From: a virus
Length of the DNA: 40,645 bases
Strand: one strand, 5' to 3'
Virus record (IMG/VR): IMGVR_UViG_3300044699_000087
Coordinates: 1 to 40,645 of that record
Part shown: positions 11,278-28,219 of the stretch, in pieces
How the letters are laid out: each line of letters begins with the position of its first letter
Position numbering within the stretch: the stretch's first letter is position 1
The notes under the pieces: generated by a model
Databases searched by the model: none
What the model saw: the letters and a program-made list of their open reading frames with translations, nothing else
What the model was told of the DNA's origin: nothing
Made by a program: the position numbers and the translations under genes

Positions 11278-12739
11278 TCAGGCCCGGACGGCGACCTTCA
11301 CGAACGGCGACAGCGTCGCGCTGCCCTGCTTGGGGGGTGATCGCCGACTCGATCAGCGGCCGACCATCGACCCGCTGGATGAACCGGTACGCGGTGAGGT
11401 CGTTCTGGAACCGGAAGTGCGGCGACGACTCGGCCTGCATGACCTGCCGGTCACCGATCGCGTAGTACGACAGGTCCACGAAGTTGATGTCGCCCGCGGA
11501 GCCGACGGTGGGGACCTTCTCGGTGAAGGTCACGGGGCGGCCCAGGATCGTCATCGGCGGGCCCTCGGCGCCGTTGTTCAGCCAGATGGCCGAGCCGCCG
11601 GTACCGACCGACAGGGCCATGGTGGCCAGCTCGGGGAACGAGTCGATGTTCGCCACCCACTCGGCGTTCCCGAGGCTCGAGGGGAGCATGCGGGCGTACG
11701 CCTTGACGATGTTCTCCCACACGATCGTCGTGGCCGGCTGCCCGGTCTCCTTCGTCACCGACACGGCGGCCGGGCTGTTCAGCCAGCCCAGGGGCTCGCC
11801 GGAGCCGGTGCCGTTCATGAACCCGTCGTCCTCGTACCAGGCCATCGCGCGGGGGTACGCCTGGTTGAAAAACGCACCGAACGCGGTGGCGTCGGCGACG
11901 AGCTCGTTGGGGACCTCGGCGTACGCCGTCAGCTTCTTGGCCTCGAGGCGGATGCGCCGGAACTTGGCCTGCGACTCGGTGAGCGATGCGCCCTCTTCGG
12001 TCCAGTAGCAGACGATCCCACCGAACACCGACGAGGCGTTGCTCGTGGAGTCGACGCCGGGGATGGTGACCGACAGGGTCTCCATCGGGATCACCGTCGC
12101 ACGAGGCCGCGTCACCGACTGCTCGAGGGCGATCATCATCACGTCGGAGCGCATCGACTCGGGGATGAGGAACCCGCCGTCGGACGGGACGACCGAGCCG
12201 TAGTCGTTGCGGATCTTGTGCATCGCCTCGAGGGCGGCGGTGCGCTTGGCCCGGTCGCCCGGGAGCTTCTCGTGCTGGAAGTTGATGGCCTGGAGGAACT
12301 CCGCCGCGTTGTCGAACAGGTCGGCGTCGTCGAGGCGGGCACCGGCGGCCGTCTTGTTGAACAGGGCGTTGCGGGCACCCCAGCCCGCGGAGCCGGGGGC
12401 GCCGTTGCTGGGACGCTGGTCGAGCCGGTTCACGCCGGTGGCGCGGCCCTTGCCTGCCTTCTCGTCCTTCAGGCGCCACGCGAGCTGGCGGTCCATCTCT
12501 TCCTTGGCCTCGGCGGCCAGCTTGGGCCGCTCCTGGTCGAGGATCTTGGTGACGGACGCCTGGACCTCGTCGTTGACCCGCTTCTGGAAGTCGGGGTCGC
12601 GGCGCTGCTGGTCCTTGACGTAGTTCCCGATCCAGGTGGCCAGGGCCTTCGGGTCCTCGTCGAGCTTGGCCAGCTGGGCCTTGTCGTTGAGCATCTCCTC
12701 CAGCTCGGTCGAGCTGGTGGGGATCAGCAGATCGGTCAT
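11278..12739 (-). CDS. Major capsid protein, HK97 fold
   Basis: This is about 486 residues when the run of six C near 11334 is read as five, giving the ending ITPKQGSATLSPFVKVAVRA. The first ~165 residues are charged and helical (LEEMLNDKAQLAKLDEDP, KRVNDEVQASVTKILDQ), as in the delta or scaffold domain that the head protease removes. The rest has HK97 hallmarks: GGFLIPESMRSDVMMIALE, YAEVPNELVADATAF, DGFMNGTGSGEPLGWLN and a late RVDGRPLIESA. The ATG overlaps the protease stop and is served by AAGGAGG within that gene. A hairpin follows the gene. Confidence 0.92.
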
Positions 12740-15358: not shown

Positions 15359-15643
15359 TCAGCCCGCGGCGTCCTCTTGGGCGTCGTCGTACGCCGACTG
15401 GATCTCCTTCGAGATCGCACCGCTGTCCGCGACGTCGTAGCCGTTCGCACGCGCCCACACCCGGATCTTCTGCGTCCGCGTCGCCCCGTCGTCCGCCTCG
15501 ACAGCGGCGACCTCGGCCTCGAGCTCGCCCTCGTCGACGTTGCCGGCGTCGTCGGCCGAACAGTGCGGGCACCGGTCGAGGCCGACGGCGTAGCGGGTGG
15601 TGCACTCACGGCAGACACGCAGCATGCGGGCAGGGTAGGTCAC
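15359..15643 (-). CDS. Zinc ribbon protein with Lsr2-like C-terminal domain
   Basis: This is a 94-residue protein with two parts. Residues 11-28 form a four-Cys zinc ribbon (CREC and CPHC). An acidic linker leads to residues 58-88, RTQKIRVWARANGYDVADSG and the helix after it, which match the C-terminal DNA-binding domain of the actinobacterial nucleoid protein Lsr2 (IRxWAxxNGYxVxxRGRI). The Arg-Gly-Arg that inserts into the DNA minor groove is replaced by Ser-Gly-Ala. It might therefore compete with host Lsr2 in partner contacts rather than bind AT-rich DNA. The GTG start overlaps the terminase stop by four bases. Confidence 0.75.
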   Translation of the reverse strand: MTYPARMLRVCRECTTRYAVGLDRCPHCSADDAGNVDEGELEAEVAAVEADDGATRTQKIRVWARANGYDVADSGAISKEIQSAYDDAQEDAAG

Positions 15644-17056
15644 GTCAGCCAGCGGATACCGGGCTCACCGAACTCGGCCAGAGCGTTGAACGCCGTCGCT
15701 GCGGCGTCGACCTGGTCGTCGTGGCTGCCACGCGGGAAATCGGTGTGCTCCGACACGAAACGGGCGTTCCACTCGCCCTCCACGATCAGGACGTTCCCCG
15801 CCTGCTGCTGCGCGGCGTAGCTGTTCGCCCGGATCTCCTTGTTCCCCGTCACCGGGTTCGCCGACGCATCGAACCCCGCCATGTGCGCGATCAGCTGCTG
15901 CGCCTGGTCCTTCCCGGCCTGGCCCGGGTCCTGCGGCAACTTCACCATCGTCCCGTCAGGGTCCCCCGCCGCGGCGGAGCGCATCTTCTGGCGCCACGTG
16001 TGTCCGTCCCACTGGCCACGCTCCACATGACCGATCACGAACCGGCCGTCGAACAGGCGCCCGACCCGCACCCCGACCGTCCAGTCCCCGCCCCCTTCGG
16101 TCGCGGCCAGGTCCCAGCCGCGGCACCACGTGACGTCGTCGGGCAGCTCGTGGGCCTTGACGAACCGCCACTTCGCTTCGGGGAACACCGACCCGCCCGC
16201 TTCGTTGGGGCGCTGCTGCACCTGCGCGTTCCACACCGCGCCGCCCATCAACAGGGACAGCTGCTTGCGCTGCTTCGTCAGTTCGGACACCGGCCACCGT
16301 TCGGGCCACAGGGCCTCGCCGAGCTCACGCCCGAGCGGGTCGGTGTCGGGGTCGTCGCAGAACCCGGGCATCCGCAGCGCCGACCACTCCTCCGGTGACT
16401 CCTCGACGAGGAACCCGGCGGGGGTCGTTGGCGTGCCACCGGGCCAGCGCCATGAGAGCGGCGCCGCCGGGTTCGATCCGGCCGAACATGGTGCCGACGA
16501 GCCACTCGTTGACCTTGGCCCGCTGCACCGGCGACATGGCGGCCTCGTAGCCCTTGAGGGGGTCGTCGATGACCATGAGGTCGGCGCCTTCGCCGATGGG
16601 TGTCCCACCGACACCGACGGTGATCATCCCGCCGGTGTCCCCGTCGATGTCCCACCGGGACGCGGACTCGGAGCGGCGGGACACGCGGACGTCGAACATG
16701 TGGCCGTGCTCGGTGACCATGTCCCGCACGGCGCGCCCGCGGCGTTCGGCGAACTCGGCGGTGTGCCCACCCCAGATGACCCGCTTGTCCGGGTTGGTGC
16801 AGAGGTAGTGGGCGACGAACCGCTCGAGGTACTTCGTCTTGCCGTGGCGGATGGCGACTTCGAGGATGAGGCGGGTCGCGGCGGCGATGGTGGCTTGGGC
16901 GTGTTCCTCCATGACGTGGAGGTGGCGGGGCGCGTCGTATTTGCCCCGGCCGGTGTGGACGGCCCAGGCGAGCGGGGAGGTGCGCCAGGGTTCGTCTGGT
17001 GGCGGCGGGGGGTCTACGAGGTCAGCGGCGAGCGCCCACGGCGACGGGGCAGGCAC
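15640..17056 (-). CDS. Terminase large subunit
   Basis: This is about 471 residues after reading the run of five C near 16425 as four, which restores RWHANDPAGFLVEE. The ATPase part has a Walker A-like IRHGKTKY near residue 70 and Walker B LMVIDDP. The nuclease part has WDLAATEGGGDWT and a late SHDDQVDA, acidic residues of the RNase H-like fold. It drives DNA packaging and cuts concatemers. As in many actinophages the small subunit gene is not adjacent but lies about 2 kb upstream, separated by miniprotein genes. Confidence 0.9.
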
Positions 17057-19653: not shown

Positions 19654-20145
19654 TCATGCCGTCCCCTGGTGGGCACGCGGCTGGTCGTCGGGGTCGTGGC
19701 CCCAGTCGGGGTGGTCCATGGCGTCGCCTTCGTCGACAACAGCGACGTGGTGGTCGACGAGCTGGTGGTGGCCTGCCCCGGGGATGTGGATGGTGAGGGC
19801 GGTGTAGTCGCCGTGTTCGCTGCCGAAGTCTTCGGCGTCGGTGACGTGGCCGTGGAGGCTGGGGGCACGGAAACGCTCGATCTCGGCCCAGCCCTGTTGG
19901 ATCCGGACGCCGAGCGCGGTGTTCTGCTCGCGCAGCCGCTCGATCTCGGCCAGAGCGTCATGCAGGTCCGTGAGGCGGGCGTCGTCGGTGGGGCTGGGGC
20001 GGGCAGGCAGCAGAGCCATCACGGCGTCGGTGATGCGGGTGATTCGAGAGCCAGCATCCGCCGGCTCCCACTTGAAGACTTCGAGCACGGCCGCCATCAC
20101 CTGCTCTCGGGTGGGGCCGGGTACCGGCTGGGTGGGGTCAGGCAC
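19654..20145 (-). CDS. Hypothetical protein with coiled-coil centre (163 aa)
   Basis: This 163-residue protein has an N-terminal helix (TREQVMAAVLEVFKWEP), then a coiled coil near residues 55-95 (DLHDALAEIERLREQNTALG, RIQQGWAEIERF) and a His/Asp-rich C-terminus (IPGAGHHQLVDHHVAVVDEG, DHPDWGHDPDDQ). The His/Asp tail might bind metal. No family is recognised. It overlaps the methyltransferase gene upstream by 8 bases. Confidence 0.65.
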   Translation of the reverse strand: MPDPTQPVPGPTREQVMAAVLEVFKWEPADAGSRITRITDAVMALLPARPSPTDDARLTDLHDALAEIERLREQNTALGVRIQQGWAEIERFRAPSLHGHVTDAEDFGSEHGDYTALTIHIPGAGHHQLVDHHVAVVDEGDAMDHPDWGHDPDDQPRAHQGTA

Positions 20146-20874
20146 GAACGGCTCCGTTCATGGCGCTCAGCCGCAGAGCCGTTGCCTCGCAGTAGCTCTC
20201 GTCCAACTCGACGCCGATAGCCCGGCGGCCCTCGATCGCCGCCGCCACGAGCGTGGACCCGTGACCGGCGAACGGGTCGAGGACGGTCTCACCGAGGCAC
20301 GACGATGACTCGATCAGCTGACGGAGCAAGAAGACCGGCTTCGCTGTCGGGTGCGGCTTGAACCGGTCCTCCATCTGGCCGGCGTTCGGTCGTGGCACCC
20401 GGATGACGCTCTGTCGTCTCAGCCGGGCAGCAAGCCGTCCGTCGCCACGCTTGCGTCCGGACGGGCGGGAGACGTAGACGCCGAAGGTGATCGGTTCCCA
20501 GCTCGGACCCCACGGACAAGTGAGGTCACCCGAGCCGAGCATCTCCTTGTCCCACACCAACTCACAGGTGCCGCCGATGGGCAGGTCGGTGAGCGCGGGT
20601 CGCCCGAAGATGTAGAGATGACGCTGCTCCCGGATGAGGGGAGCAGCGAGAGTGATCGCCTCTCGGATCAGGACGTCAGCGGTGTCGTCGTCACCAGCGA
20701 TCCAGGGAGGGCGTTCACTCGGCGCCCGCTGCGGAACCCGACCCCGTAGGGCGGGTCCGTCACCAAGAGATCGACCGAGTCCCGTGCGAGCAACGGCAGG
20801 ACCTCGCGGCAGTCGCCGTGGTAGAGCACCACCGTGCCGTCGTCGAAGTACGGGGTCGGCTCAGGGCTGGCCAT
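20138..20874 (-). CDS. DNA methyltransferase, DPPY type
   Basis: This is about 245 residues with one base added to the CCC run near 20714, which gives VNAPPWIAGDDD. Motif IV is DPPY at residues 40-43 (LLVTDPPYGVGF). Motif I, DPFAGHGST, is near the C-terminus, followed by RRAIGVELDESYCE, which binds S-adenosylmethionine. This order is that of beta-class N6-adenine or N4-cytosine methyltransferases; DPPY favours adenine. No restriction enzyme is adjacent, so it is an orphan that could protect phage DNA. The middle contains a target-recognition-like part, RRQSVIRVPRPNAGQ. Confidence 0.85.
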
Positions 20875-25567: not shown

Positions 25568-25846
25568 TCAGGGGTCGAGTGCGTCAGCCCGCGGCGGCCA
25601 GGGGCCCACGGGCCGACCGGCCGAGCGCAGCAGGTCGTGGTCCGCCACAGACAGGAAGCCCATGGCGCCGAGGATGGACAGCTCGTCGTCATCGAACCCG
25701 GCGGCGAGGGTGCCGAGCCAGAGCAGGCGCTCGGCGCGCTGGTGGAGGCGTCGGGCGTCGTTGAACCTGTCGCCGATCTCGGAGAGCCGGTGCTTGGTGA
25801 ACTCGTCGAAGTCGTCTCTGGACAGGCAGCGCTTCCTGCGGCTCAT
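25568..25846 (-). CDS. Hypothetical protein, last gene of the replication block (92 aa)
   Basis: This 92-residue protein is basic at the N-terminus (MSRRKRCLSRDDFDEFTKH), then helical (IGDRFNDARRLHQRAERLL, DDDELSILGAMGFLSVADH). Its ATG overlaps the stop of the replication initiator gene. In lambda-like phages the gene after O encodes a helicase loader; this protein is far too short for a P homologue, but a helper of replication is possible. No domain is recognised. Confidence 0.6.
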   Translation of the reverse strand: MSRRKRCLSRDDFDEFTKHRLSEIGDRFNDARRLHQRAERLLWLGTLAAGFDDDELSILGAMGFLSVADHDLLRSAGRPVGPWPPRADALDP

Positions 25847-26553
25847 GCCTGCCCCCTGTGGATAACTTCGGGCGACAGCGCGCGCGGGTCACGAAGCCAC
25901 TCTCGTGAGCTGGGTTGGATTGACCCAGTGCCCTGCGCGACCGGGGGGCGTACGGGGGGAGAGTCGCTTCTCCCCCCGTCTGCGGCGCGGGTCGGGTCGG
26001 GGCACGCGCCGCGTGCGGTAGCCGAGGCTGGTGGCCCTTGACCTGAGCCGCGCGCGCGACTGTCGAGCGGGATGACATCGGCACTGCCTGACAGACCAGA
26101 CGGCGCGACGCTGTGACCAGGGCGAACACCGTTCCGCAACGGATGCTCCGTCCGTTCGCTCCGGACGTTCCGTCCGTTGCGGTCCTCGGCGCGCAACGGA
26201 AGGGATCGTCCGTTGCGCGCGCGGCCCTGCAACGGATGCTCCGTCCGTTGCGACGGGCTCAGGTGGACCACCTCGAGGTAGTCCAGGACGGTCACGCTGC
26301 CCGGGTACCCGCGGACCCACCGGCACTCGATCAGCCCGCGGTCCTCGAGCTGGCGCAGGCGCGGCCGGAGGTTGCGCGCCGAGAGGCCCAGGAGCGGGCC
26401 CAGGTCCTCCTGTGTGCCCTTCCACGTCCCGGTGCGGTGGTCGACCTCGAGCACGAGCCCCGTGAGGATCAGGCGCTCCATCGGCTCGAGTCCGTGGGCG
26501 TCCATGAGGGCGCGGAGTCGTTCGGGGCGGACGCCGACGAACCGCTCGGTCAT
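25843..26553 (-). CDS. Replication initiation protein, lambda O-like (winged helix plus internal iterons)
   Basis: Residues 1-95 form a winged helix: MERLILTGLVLEVDHRTG, TQEDLGPLLGLSARNLRPRL, then RQLEDRGLIECRWVRGYPGS. The next ~55 residues are an Arg/Asn linker with repeated peptides (RTEHPLQG, RNGRSLPLR, RTEHPLRNG) because the DNA contains four inverted-repeat iterons. The C-terminal ~80 residues are Pro/Ser-rich without a clear fold. Lambda O has the same plan: N-terminal origin-binding domain, ori inside its gene, C-terminal partner domain. The initiator role is inferred from that architecture and gene position. 236 residues, frame intact. Confidence 0.7.
   Translation of the reverse strand: MTERFVGVRPERLRALMDAHGLEPMERLILTGLVLEVDHRTGTWKGTQEDLGPLLGLSARNLRPRLRQLEDRGLIECRWVRGYPGSVTVLDYLEVVHLSPSQRTEHPLQGRARNGRSLPLRAEDRNGRNVRSERTEHPLRNGVRPGHSVAPSGLSGSADVIPLDSRARGSGQGPPASATARGACPDPTRAADGGRSDSPPVRPPVAQGTGSIQPSSREWLRDPRALSPEVIHRGQA
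26136..26251 (-). repeat. Iteron array inside the initiator gene (putative origin of replication)
   Basis: Four 23-24-nt units on the minus strand begin near 26251, 26216, 26180 and 26158. Each has a left arm (G/C)(C/G)AACGGACG and a right arm resembling TCCGTTGC, so each unit is itself an inverted repeat; the unit at 26190-26219 extends to 11-bp perfect arms. Units recur at steps of 35, 36 and 22 nt. No AT-rich unwinding element was noticed close by. Confidence 0.75.
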
Positions 26554-26717
26554 GACGCCGCCGTGGCGGCGTCGACCTCGAGTGCCGCGGCGATCAGCTC
26601 GCGGGCGATGGCGGAAGCGCTGACGTCGCGCTCGAGGGCGCGGCGCTCGATCTCTTCGGCTTCGGCGGGCTTGAGGTAGACAGCGATCCGCTGCCGACCA
26701 CCGTACGTGGCTGCCAT
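26550..26717 (-). CDS. Ribbon-helix-helix protein (55 aa)
   Basis: The ribbon strand is RQRIAVYLKPAEA, followed by helix A EEIERRALERDVS and helix B SASAIARELIAAAL, the pattern of CopG/Arc-type dimeric repressors. The gene lies just before the initiator and overlaps it by ATGA, which suggests control of replication gene expression in the manner of plasmid CopG. A TAGGCT box 6 nt before the ATG suggests a leaderless internal promoter. Confidence 0.8.
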   Translation of the reverse strand: MAATYGGRQRIAVYLKPAEAEEIERRALERDVSASAIARELIAAALEVDAATAAS

Positions 26718-26721
26718 CGGC

Positions 26722-26991
26722 TTAGCCTAACCCGTTCCCGGTCCAGCAGTCGACGCAGACGGACAGGTCCGGGCCCTTGTACCGGCGCGCCCGCGTGTTG
26801 AACACCGGGACCATCCCCCGGAACTCGAGCGCCGGCCGCCCGCACGCCTGGCACAACCAGCCCTCATCGTCATGGGCAGGGTGGGTGCGGGTCGCCTGCG
26901 CCCACCCGTCGGCCCGTAGGTACGGCTCGTAGCGGCGGTCCCCCGCGGCGACGGCACGCCGGGCGAAGTCCTCCGACGGGCGGTCAGGCAT
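26722..26991 (-). CDS. Zinc-binding hypothetical protein (89 aa)
   Basis: The protein begins MPDRPSEDFARRAVAAGDRR and ends with two Cys pairs: CQACGRPALEFRG near residue 50 and SVCVDCWTGNG near 80. This four-Cys treble-clef-like finger suggests zinc binding and perhaps DNA or RNA contact. It overlaps the methyltransferase end. Function unknown. Confidence 0.7.
   Translation of the reverse strand: MPDRPSEDFARRAVAAGDRRYEPYLRADGWAQATRTHPAHDDEGWLCQACGRPALEFRGMVPVFNTRARRYKGPDLSVCVDCWTGNGLG
26724..26753 (-). promoter_or_regulatory. Possible leaderless promoter for the RHH-initiator genes
   Basis: TAGGCT lies 6 nt upstream of the RHH ATG on the minus strand; a weak -35 (TCGACT) occurs 18 bp further upstream. 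The TAGGCT is within a small palindrome TTAGGCTAA, overlapping the stop codon of the upstream gene. Evidence is modest because the -35 matches only four of six consensus bases. Confidence 0.45.
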
Positions 26992-28219
26992 CGCCGTCGT
27001 CCACGGTGAGGAACATGCCGACCCTGTCGCGGGCGAGGTCGGCGTTGCGGGAGTCGAGGTCGATGCCGATGGAGTCGCGGGACATGCCGGAGGCGACGGC
27101 CAGCGTGGTGCCGGAGCCGGCGAAGGGATCGAGGACGAGGCCGGGGCGCCAGATGTTGTGGCCGCAGTCCGACCAGCCCACGGTGCTGCGGTCAGCGCAG
27201 CGGTTGCCGTGCGTGCCTGCGCCCCCGTCGTTGATGACCGGGTCGCGAACCTTGTCAGGCCACTCGGTCGGCTCGACGATGCGCCGCGACGGCTGCCCGC
27301 AGGTGATGCAGACCTTGCGGGGGCACATGGAGTCGATGAGCCGCTTGGGTAGCTCGGGCGGGAAGACGGCGTAGTGGGCGCCCGCGTAGCCGCCGGGGGT
27401 GATCTCCCACCAGTCGAGCGGCGGGGCTCCGGCGGGGTTGTTGAGCCGGTCCTGGCGGTGATGGCCGGACGGCGAGCCGTTGTTCTTCGCTGAGGGCGGG
27501 GTGCCGTCGGCGACGGTGAGGGTCTTGGCGGCGAGGGGCTGGCGGACGGCGTCGAGGTCGAACCACCGGTCACGTGCCCGGGTGGCCACGGTGATGTAGC
27601 TCGTGGCCGGCCGGTACTTGTCGGCCAGCGCACCCACCGGGGGGTTGGGACGCACCCAGGCGACCATGTTCCGGATCCGCCACCGACCCGCGGGTGAGTC
27701 AGGGCCGCGCCGGTCGAGGACGTTGTACCCGTAGGCGAGCGACAGCAAGTAGGCCTCGGGGATGCCGCACAGCGACTTCTCCATCGGCCAGCCGGTTGAG
27801 GTATCCCGTCGAGCGGGCGGCGTCACGCCGTTGGCGATGTAGCCCTCGCGTCGAGTCTCACGGACACGTCGACCAGACCCGTCGAATTTCGGCTGCCCCT
27901 CGCGGAGTCCGTCGGCGGTGTAGTCCCCGCCCCCGCCCCCGCCCCCACTGCCGGCGTAGGTGTCGCCGAGCTCGACAGCGATCGACCCGTGCGGGGTGAG
28001 CAGCCGGCCCCACTCGGCGGTCAGCTCGAGGAGCGTGTGGATGAACTCGGCGGGGGTCGGCTCGGAGCCGATCTCCTTGCCCTTGTCCGGGTGGTCGGCG
28101 GGCAGGTAGCTGCGCAGCGCGAGGAACGGGGGCGAGGTGACGACGAGGTCGACGGACCCGTCCGGTAGCTGCGCCATGCGCTCCCGGACGTCGCCCACTA
28201 GGTAAGTGGCGGTGCTCAT
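26984..28219 (-). CDS. DNA methyltransferase, TSPPF type
   Basis: This is an intact 411-residue enzyme. Motif IV is TSPPF at residues 28-32 (DLVVTSPPFLALR) and motif I DPFAGSGTT lies near residue 370, followed by IGIDLDSRNADLA. The S/T-PPF form with motif IV before motif I is typical of N4-cytosine beta-class enzymes. A Gly run (SGGGGGGGD) is encoded by a CCCCCG repeat. A Cys cluster (CPRKVCITCGQP and later CADRSTVGWSDC) probably binds zinc near the target-recognition region. No cognate nuclease is present. Confidence 0.9.
   Translation of the reverse strand: MSTATYLVGDVRERMAQLPDGSVDLVVTSPPFLALRSYLPADHPDKGKEIGSEPTPAEFIHTLLELTAEWGRLLTPHGSIAVELGDTYAGSGGGGGGGDYTADGLREGQPKFDGSGRRVRETRREGYIANGVTPPARRDTSTGWPMEKSLCGIPEAYLLSLAYGYNVLDRRGPDSPAGRWRIRNMVAWVRPNPPVGALADKYRPATSYITVATRARDRWFDLDAVRQPLAAKTLTVADGTPPSAKNNGSPSGHHRQDRLNNPAGAPPLDWWEITPGGYAGAHYAVFPPELPKRLIDSMCPRKVCITCGQPSRRIVEPTEWPDKVRDPVINDGGAGTHGNRCADRSTVGWSDCGHNIWRPGLVLDPFAGSGTTLAVASGMSRDSIGIDLDSRNADLARDRVGMFLTVDDGDA

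Follow-up and report, generated by a model that had tools for sequence, protein, structure and literature searches.

The region between positions 25,843 and 26,553 of the window (the whole stretch of viral DNA analysed here, 40,645 nucleotides long) probably constitutes a lytic replication origin together with its initiator gene, a reading to which we assign roughly three chances in four, with the iterons lying within the gene and the DnaA and helicase of the host being recruited. What the sequence establishes is the gene, its iterons, a DnaA box (Table 1), a paired change of the DNA-binding domain and its sites in a relative, and the lack of detectable replication enzymes of the phage's own. 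The main interpretation of an initial annotation made from this DNA is probably right in its plan, and several of its particulars are revised below.

Table 1. Features of the putative origin region and of its neighbouring genes in the window
Feature	Positions	Strand	Basis or remark
Small gene, 55 aa, probable ribbon-helix-helix (CopG-like)	26550-26717	-	RHH_1 E=0.036, short of the cut-off; coding score
N-terminal winged-helix DNA-binding domain of the putative initiator, aa 1-99	26257-26553	-	Pfam, AlphaFold, codon-position G+C
Iteron 1, dyad GCAACGGACGGAGCATCCGTTGC	26229-26251	-	Coding-strand repeat
Iteron 2, GCAACGGACGATCCCTTCCGTTGC	26193-26216	-	Coding-strand repeat
Iteron 3, GCAACGGACGGAACGTCCGGAGC, right arm degenerate	26158-26180	-	Coding-strand repeat
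Iteron 4, CGAACGGACGGAGCATCCGTTGC	26136-26158	-	Coding-strand repeat
Conserved tail, open frame lacking codon bias, putative cis-acting origin DNA, possibly translated too	25843-26125	-	
Hairpin GGGGGGAGA-GTCGCT-TCTCCCCCC	25954-25977	.	Stem present in fold; inverted repeat kept in L008
Perfect DnaA box TTATCCACA	25857-25865	-	Sole exact copy in the genome; kept in L008
Next gene	25568-25846	-	Start codon overlaps the initiator stop (ATGA)

An iteron array inside the putative initiator gene

The open reading frame on the minus strand (25843-26553) encodes 236 amino acids, of which the first 100 were confidently modelled by AlphaFold as a winged helix (pLDDT 87.8) composed of helices at residues 10-19, 24-36, 48-54, and 59-71 and a beta wing. 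This domain precedes the iteron array, and the G+C content at its three codon positions (0.78/0.43/0.96 for residues 1-99) follows the usual pattern of this genome, which fades across the repeats. Comparisons by sequence gave little: the protein has only a weak Crp-type HTH match in Pfam (E=0.0039, short of the cut-off) and no match in PHROG, and known initiators gave no significant match to the winged helix. The best fold matches found by Foldseek were MarR and CodY, with N-terminal domains of plasmid initiators at ranks 12 and 31 and TubR structures also present, none of them at E<=0.001. A PDB search with the sequence profile of the protein returned generic transcription regulators almost exclusively.

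Four palindromic repeats span 26136-26251, with spacings between their starts of 35, 36, and 22 bp, and the motif CAACGGA/TCCGTTG occurs six times within 114 bp, three times on each strand. A count of six was reached in none of 60 Markov genomes (maximum 5), in none of 2000 codon shuffles of the frame, and in one of 2000 synonymous resamplings. Because these controls so rarely match it, the array is real, beyond chance, and not explained by the protein sequence. The possibility that the repeats are a mere by-product of a repetitive protein was likewise discarded, since synonymous resampling recreates them in only 1/2000 cases. Both the inverted-repeat iterons inside the initiator gene and the repeated peptides RTEHPL and RNGR, as initially annotated, were recovered, each peptide occurring twice. 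A GC-skew shift near 26.2 kb had been proposed as a further check; none was seen in a scan of the genome, where the skew tracks gene direction and flips its sign at ~33 kb. Furthermore, no AT-rich tract lies beside the iterons, whose flanks have ~72% G+C, and no clear AT-rich unwinding element was seen there. The missing skew shift and the missing unwinding element both count against the origin reading. When the iteron pattern was searched in IMG/VR, five single matches were obtained; one of them, L003, carries a separate in-gene repeat array with no related winged helix and was set aside.

Paired change of the DNA reader and its sites in a relative

Searches with the whole protein or with the 100-residue domain in phages, plasmids, IMG/VR, and GTDB genomes returned a single contig, L008, which had been found through a RecT search and carries the only relative of this exact gene that was found. 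L008 keeps the initiator gene and the position of the array, and its winged helix is 60% identical; its array consists of a different set of palindromes of the type AAGGGGC...CACCCCTT, including AAGAGGCGAATCACCCCTTA twice, CAAGGGGCAAACCACCCCAAA, and others. Conserved flanks enclose this altered stretch. The winged helix and the repeats therefore appear, from this one comparison, to have changed as a pair. Homologues with a conserved winged helix and lost repeats, which the initial annotation had named as the case that would speak against it, were not seen; the array of L008 occupies the same place with a different sequence. Between the winged helices (window 26257-26553, L008 12703-13002), differences are spread nearly evenly over the codon positions (30/27/34), whereas two other genes common to both genomes differ mainly at the third position (15/9/48 and 12/11/45); because of this disparity, we regard the pattern as a sign of rapid amino-acid change in the DNA-binding domain.

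In L008, both neighbours of the origin gene are swapped (12480-12706 and 13396 onward) and the downstream ATGA overlap is retained. The small upstream gene of the window, which joins the initiator by an ATGA overlap, is replaced by a different small gene, and the counterpart of the downstream gene is a different frame, HNH-like as read from sequence. As the upstream and downstream neighbours were both exchanged for other genes, the boundaries of a cassette become visible. A possible extension of the origin reading, which we put forward only tentatively, is a minimal replicon in which a single winged-helix domain and its iterons form an exchangeable specificity cassette ahead of a conserved DnaA-box segment. 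Selection would act on this segment as DNA while its frame stays open, so that the "C-terminal half" would be origin DNA and host DnaA would take the place of a phage helicase loader.

A conserved tail with a DnaA box

The stretch behind the array differs from the domain ahead of it in several respects. Its codon-position G+C (0.75/0.72/0.69) reveals no codon bias, the full-length model falls below pLDDT 50 from about residue 106 onward so that the tail is predicted to be disordered, and a second minus-strand frame is likewise open across it. At the level of DNA, the post-array stretch (window 25825-26120) is 85% identical to L008, with the perfect DnaA box in both. Substitutions in the tail are spread evenly over the codon positions (15/13/14), net length changes preserve the frame, and in both genomes it runs up to the same ATGA overlap with the gene that follows. 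The simplest reading of the even substitutions is selection on the tail DNA with the frame retained, and the 280 bp after the iterons are probably mainly origin DNA, possibly also translated.

The absent codon bias, the even substitutions, the disordered model, and the additional open frame would also suit a protein of ~100 residues that ends near the iterons, the rest being non-coding origin DNA kept open mainly by chance. Against this, the length changes relative to L008 keep the frame, both genomes end it at the same overlap, and no in-frame stop codon is present at the boundary of the winged-helix domain; within the origin reading, we consider such a short protein less likely than not. Of the architecture initially described, a winged helix followed by repeats is more secure than a coding linker and C-terminal tail, because codon bias is strong over residues 1-99 and absent in the tail.

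The DnaA box had been overlooked, and it changes the likely mechanism; that it directly borders the likely Shine-Dalgarno sequence of the following gene is a point against the origin reading. A box near the iterons, as is characteristic of DnaA-assisted iteron replicons, is found in the window (25857-25865), in L008 (13376), and at the arrays of two further loci, L017 and L052. The tail also includes a hairpin (Table 1); as a whole, its DNA fold energy is not unusually stable (z=-0.92).

Genome completeness and gene content

Ends 1 and 40645 of the window are adjacent in L008, where the joined ends align gap-free across the junction. Judged from this alignment, the record is a complete, circularly permuted 40.6-kb genome, and gene absences therefore carry meaning. 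The host of the phage is probably an actinobacterium. Six-frame searches found no DnaB helicase, tyrosine or serine integrase, ParA, or IstB/DnaC-type loader, and no DNA polymerase, helicase, or loader was found among the genes scanned with PHROGs, the exception being a methyltransferase fragment with a side match to a "DNA helicase" family (E=2e-5). These searches agree with the initial annotation, which had credited the phage with no polymerase, helicase, or loader of its own; an unrecognised loader may reside among the many small ORFs lacking a family match. Genes present include an exonuclease, a RecT-type gene, a methyltransferase, a WhiB-like gene, and structural genes.

Two separate frames, 20138-20560 (the fragment) and 26984-28219, match DNA methyltransferase families. 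The terminase large subunit (15640-17056) is split into two overlapping frames, 16325-17056 and 15640-16614, which match consecutive parts of one PHROG profile (phrog_38 290-457 and 456-706), reflecting a frameshift, a sequencing error, or a programmed event.

In-gene arrays downstream of RecT in other loci

A uniform repeat scan was applied to 54 loci fetched by RecT alone and not by their repeats. In 25 of the 54 loci it detected arrays downstream of RecT, 26 altogether, of which 24 lie inside a same-strand ORF, preceded by 84-297 codons and followed by 50-194. Since 11 arrays in 322 kb upstream of RecT compare with 26 in 435 kb downstream, the positional bias alone is modest; the striking part is the central placement of the arrays within genes. 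When ten candidate initiators (nine with in-gene repeats and gene 58 of Rhodococcus phage Mbo4) were scanned with PHROG, seven matched families named for replication initiation, including O-like and replisome-organizer families, L012 matched only a "DNA binding protein" family, and L022 and L039 had no match. Gordonia phage Jambalaya shares the order of the window, namely exonuclease, RecT, methyltransferase, small HTH gene, and "replication initiation protein", the last of which also bears repeats in its linker. Boxes of the type TTNTCCACA occur only nine times across 22 array-bearing loci, and four loci (L008, L017, L043, L052) have one within 600 bp of the array. This proximity is suggestive only, because the 600-bp limit was set after seeing the data and L008 and the window cannot count as independent. 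Two of these loci encode putative initiators (L052 14365-15027 and L017 15102-16268) with in-gene iterons and an in-gene DnaA box CCTGTGGATAAC that translates as the peptide PVDN.

These loci bear on two other explanations of the array. The winged-helix protein could be a transcriptional regulator, possibly of itself, with the repeats serving as operators for the downstream operon or its own gene; in favour of this, regulators of transcription (MarR, CodY, Lrp, Crp) head its fold and sequence matches, and its gene sits between a coupled small DNA-binding gene upstream and a following gene whose start overlaps it by ATGA. However, the repeats lie 300-420 bp within the frame and not at a promoter, a DnaA box is conserved close to them, and in-gene arrays of the same syntenic slot occur mostly in proteins of replication-initiation families, so that we judge a purely regulatory role improbable. 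Even further from likelihood stands a partition centromere (TubR- or ParR-like) of an extrachromosomal prophage: TubR structures occur among the fold matches and no integrase was found, but the domain search found no ParA, TubZ and ParM are absent among the scanned genes, and the matching arrays of related loci sit in replication-initiation proteins.

A recognition rule in a separate initiator family

How a winged helix might read palindromes within its own gene can be illustrated by a separate family, seeded by seven of the loci (L022, L034, L039, L041, L044, L048, and L051; alignment A4) and extended by further searches to 47 distinct members (L066-L120), most of those with a named host being Streptomyces prophages. 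Each member carries approximately five in-gene 21-bp palindromes of the form TTCGGG-N9-CCCGAA, and in 45 of the 47 members the final base of N9 can be predicted from a single recognition-helix residue. Aspartate goes with C (20/22), serine or asparagine with A (10/10), and arginine with G (15/15), both exceptions being aspartate with A. Chemically, Asp-C, Asn-A, and Arg-G are well-known pairings. The rule was spotted on seven sequences and then tested on further ones, holding in 13 of the 14 genome sequences newly added. According to the tree, the residue class has changed about nine times, and among independent evolutionary pairs the base was opposite to the rule in none, the well-supported pairs numbering two to four, too few for significance. 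Because a comparison of the winged helix of the window with the profile of this family was not significant, we use the family as an analogue and not as a homologue; as such, it supports the view that winged helices of this kind read the palindromes within their genes.

Proposed mechanism and its meaning

From these elements we infer that the protein binds the iterons, that the region is the origin, and that DnaA and the host helicase are recruited. In our model of the origin, the winged-helix protein would bind the four iterons just past the sequence of its own DNA-binding domain, probably as one dimer per palindrome, and assemble, on negatively supercoiled DNA, a nucleoprotein complex. With host DnaA bound at its box, this complex would open the DNA, after which the host helicase, primase, and polymerase would be brought in. 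With no loader and no structured C-terminal domain seen, host DnaA at the neighbouring box would most likely supply the link to the host helicase, and recruitment of both is favoured because the tail is predicted to be disordered, lacks codon bias, and contains the box. The small DNA-binding protein encoded upstream may regulate expression of the initiator, reminiscent of plasmid pMV158, in which copG regulates repB expression.

In the limited open-access literature searched, origins of actinobacterial phages are few, and those found are plasmid-prophage origins. The signature described here, in which palindromes cluster mid-gene a few kilobases past RecT, singles out a candidate origin with its reader in roughly half of the loci examined. 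Furthermore, the exchange seen in nature between the window and L008, together with the residue-base rule of the 47-member family, gives directly testable predictions, and both suggest how related phages and plasmids might escape cross-recognition of their origins.

Comparison with known systems

In lambda O, the DNA-binding domain comes first, and the putative initiator of the window is similarly organized, with a DNA-binding domain ahead of four inverted-repeat iterons in mid-gene. The four iterons of lambda are 19-bp imperfect inverted repeats in the middle of the initiator gene O, to whose protein they add residues (PMC7466680). Unlike lambda, the window has no AT-rich tract beside its iterons, its tail is predicted to be disordered with no P-binding domain, no P-like loader was found, and a DnaA box is present. 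Of the initial description as lambda O-like, the plan of in-gene iterons stands, whereas kinship and a lambda-like interaction domain in the tail are not supported: neither the PHROG family "replication initiation O-like" nor Pfam Phage_rep_O showed similarity, with the sub-threshold Crp-type HTH as the only hit.

A second parallel is offered by the RepA_N initiators of plasmids. Among the fold matches, Foldseek lists the initiator N-terminal domains 4pql and 4pt7, which we take to be of the pSK41 type; the resemblance is structural and not below E=0.001. In pSK41-type Rep proteins, a winged-helix N-terminal domain binds four Rep boxes located centrally in rep, the origin encodes a linker that replication can do without, the N-terminal domain is exchangeable between plasmids (pPR9) with the rest kept, and a DnaD-like C-terminal domain binds primase (PMC5703833). 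The window shares the winged helix and the four central in-gene repeats, and its difference from L008 is comparable to the pPR9 exchange; unlike pSK41 Rep, its initiator has no RepA_N match in Pfam, no other significant sequence match, and no predicted DnaD-like or other C-terminal domain.

Among phages, SPP1 also carries origin repeats (oriL) inside its initiator gene 38, as the window does; SPP1 encodes its own helicase gp40 and loader gp39 and has a second origin, oriR (PMC6316719), whereas none of these was found in the window. Jambalaya gp60 (PHROG 3171, "replication initiation protein"), alike in its gene order and linker repeats, belongs to a different family, being 437 residues long with direct repeats of ~12 bp. 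For RepA-type mycobacterial prophages, which are maintained as plasmid prophages with parABS, the authors considered an origin possibly within repA, citing lambda O; the part of their account drawn on here describes no iteron set inside the gene, in contrast to the window (PMC7157519).

Origins inside initiator genes are, then, already known from lambda, SPP1, and pSK41-type plasmids. What would go beyond these, as far as the sequences indicate, is a tail acting as conserved DNA rather than as a domain of the protein, a DnaA box, and a reader replaced together with its sites. By analogy, and while matching the sequence definition of none of them, the initiator of the window probably works like lambda O, SPP1 gp38, or pSK41 Rep.
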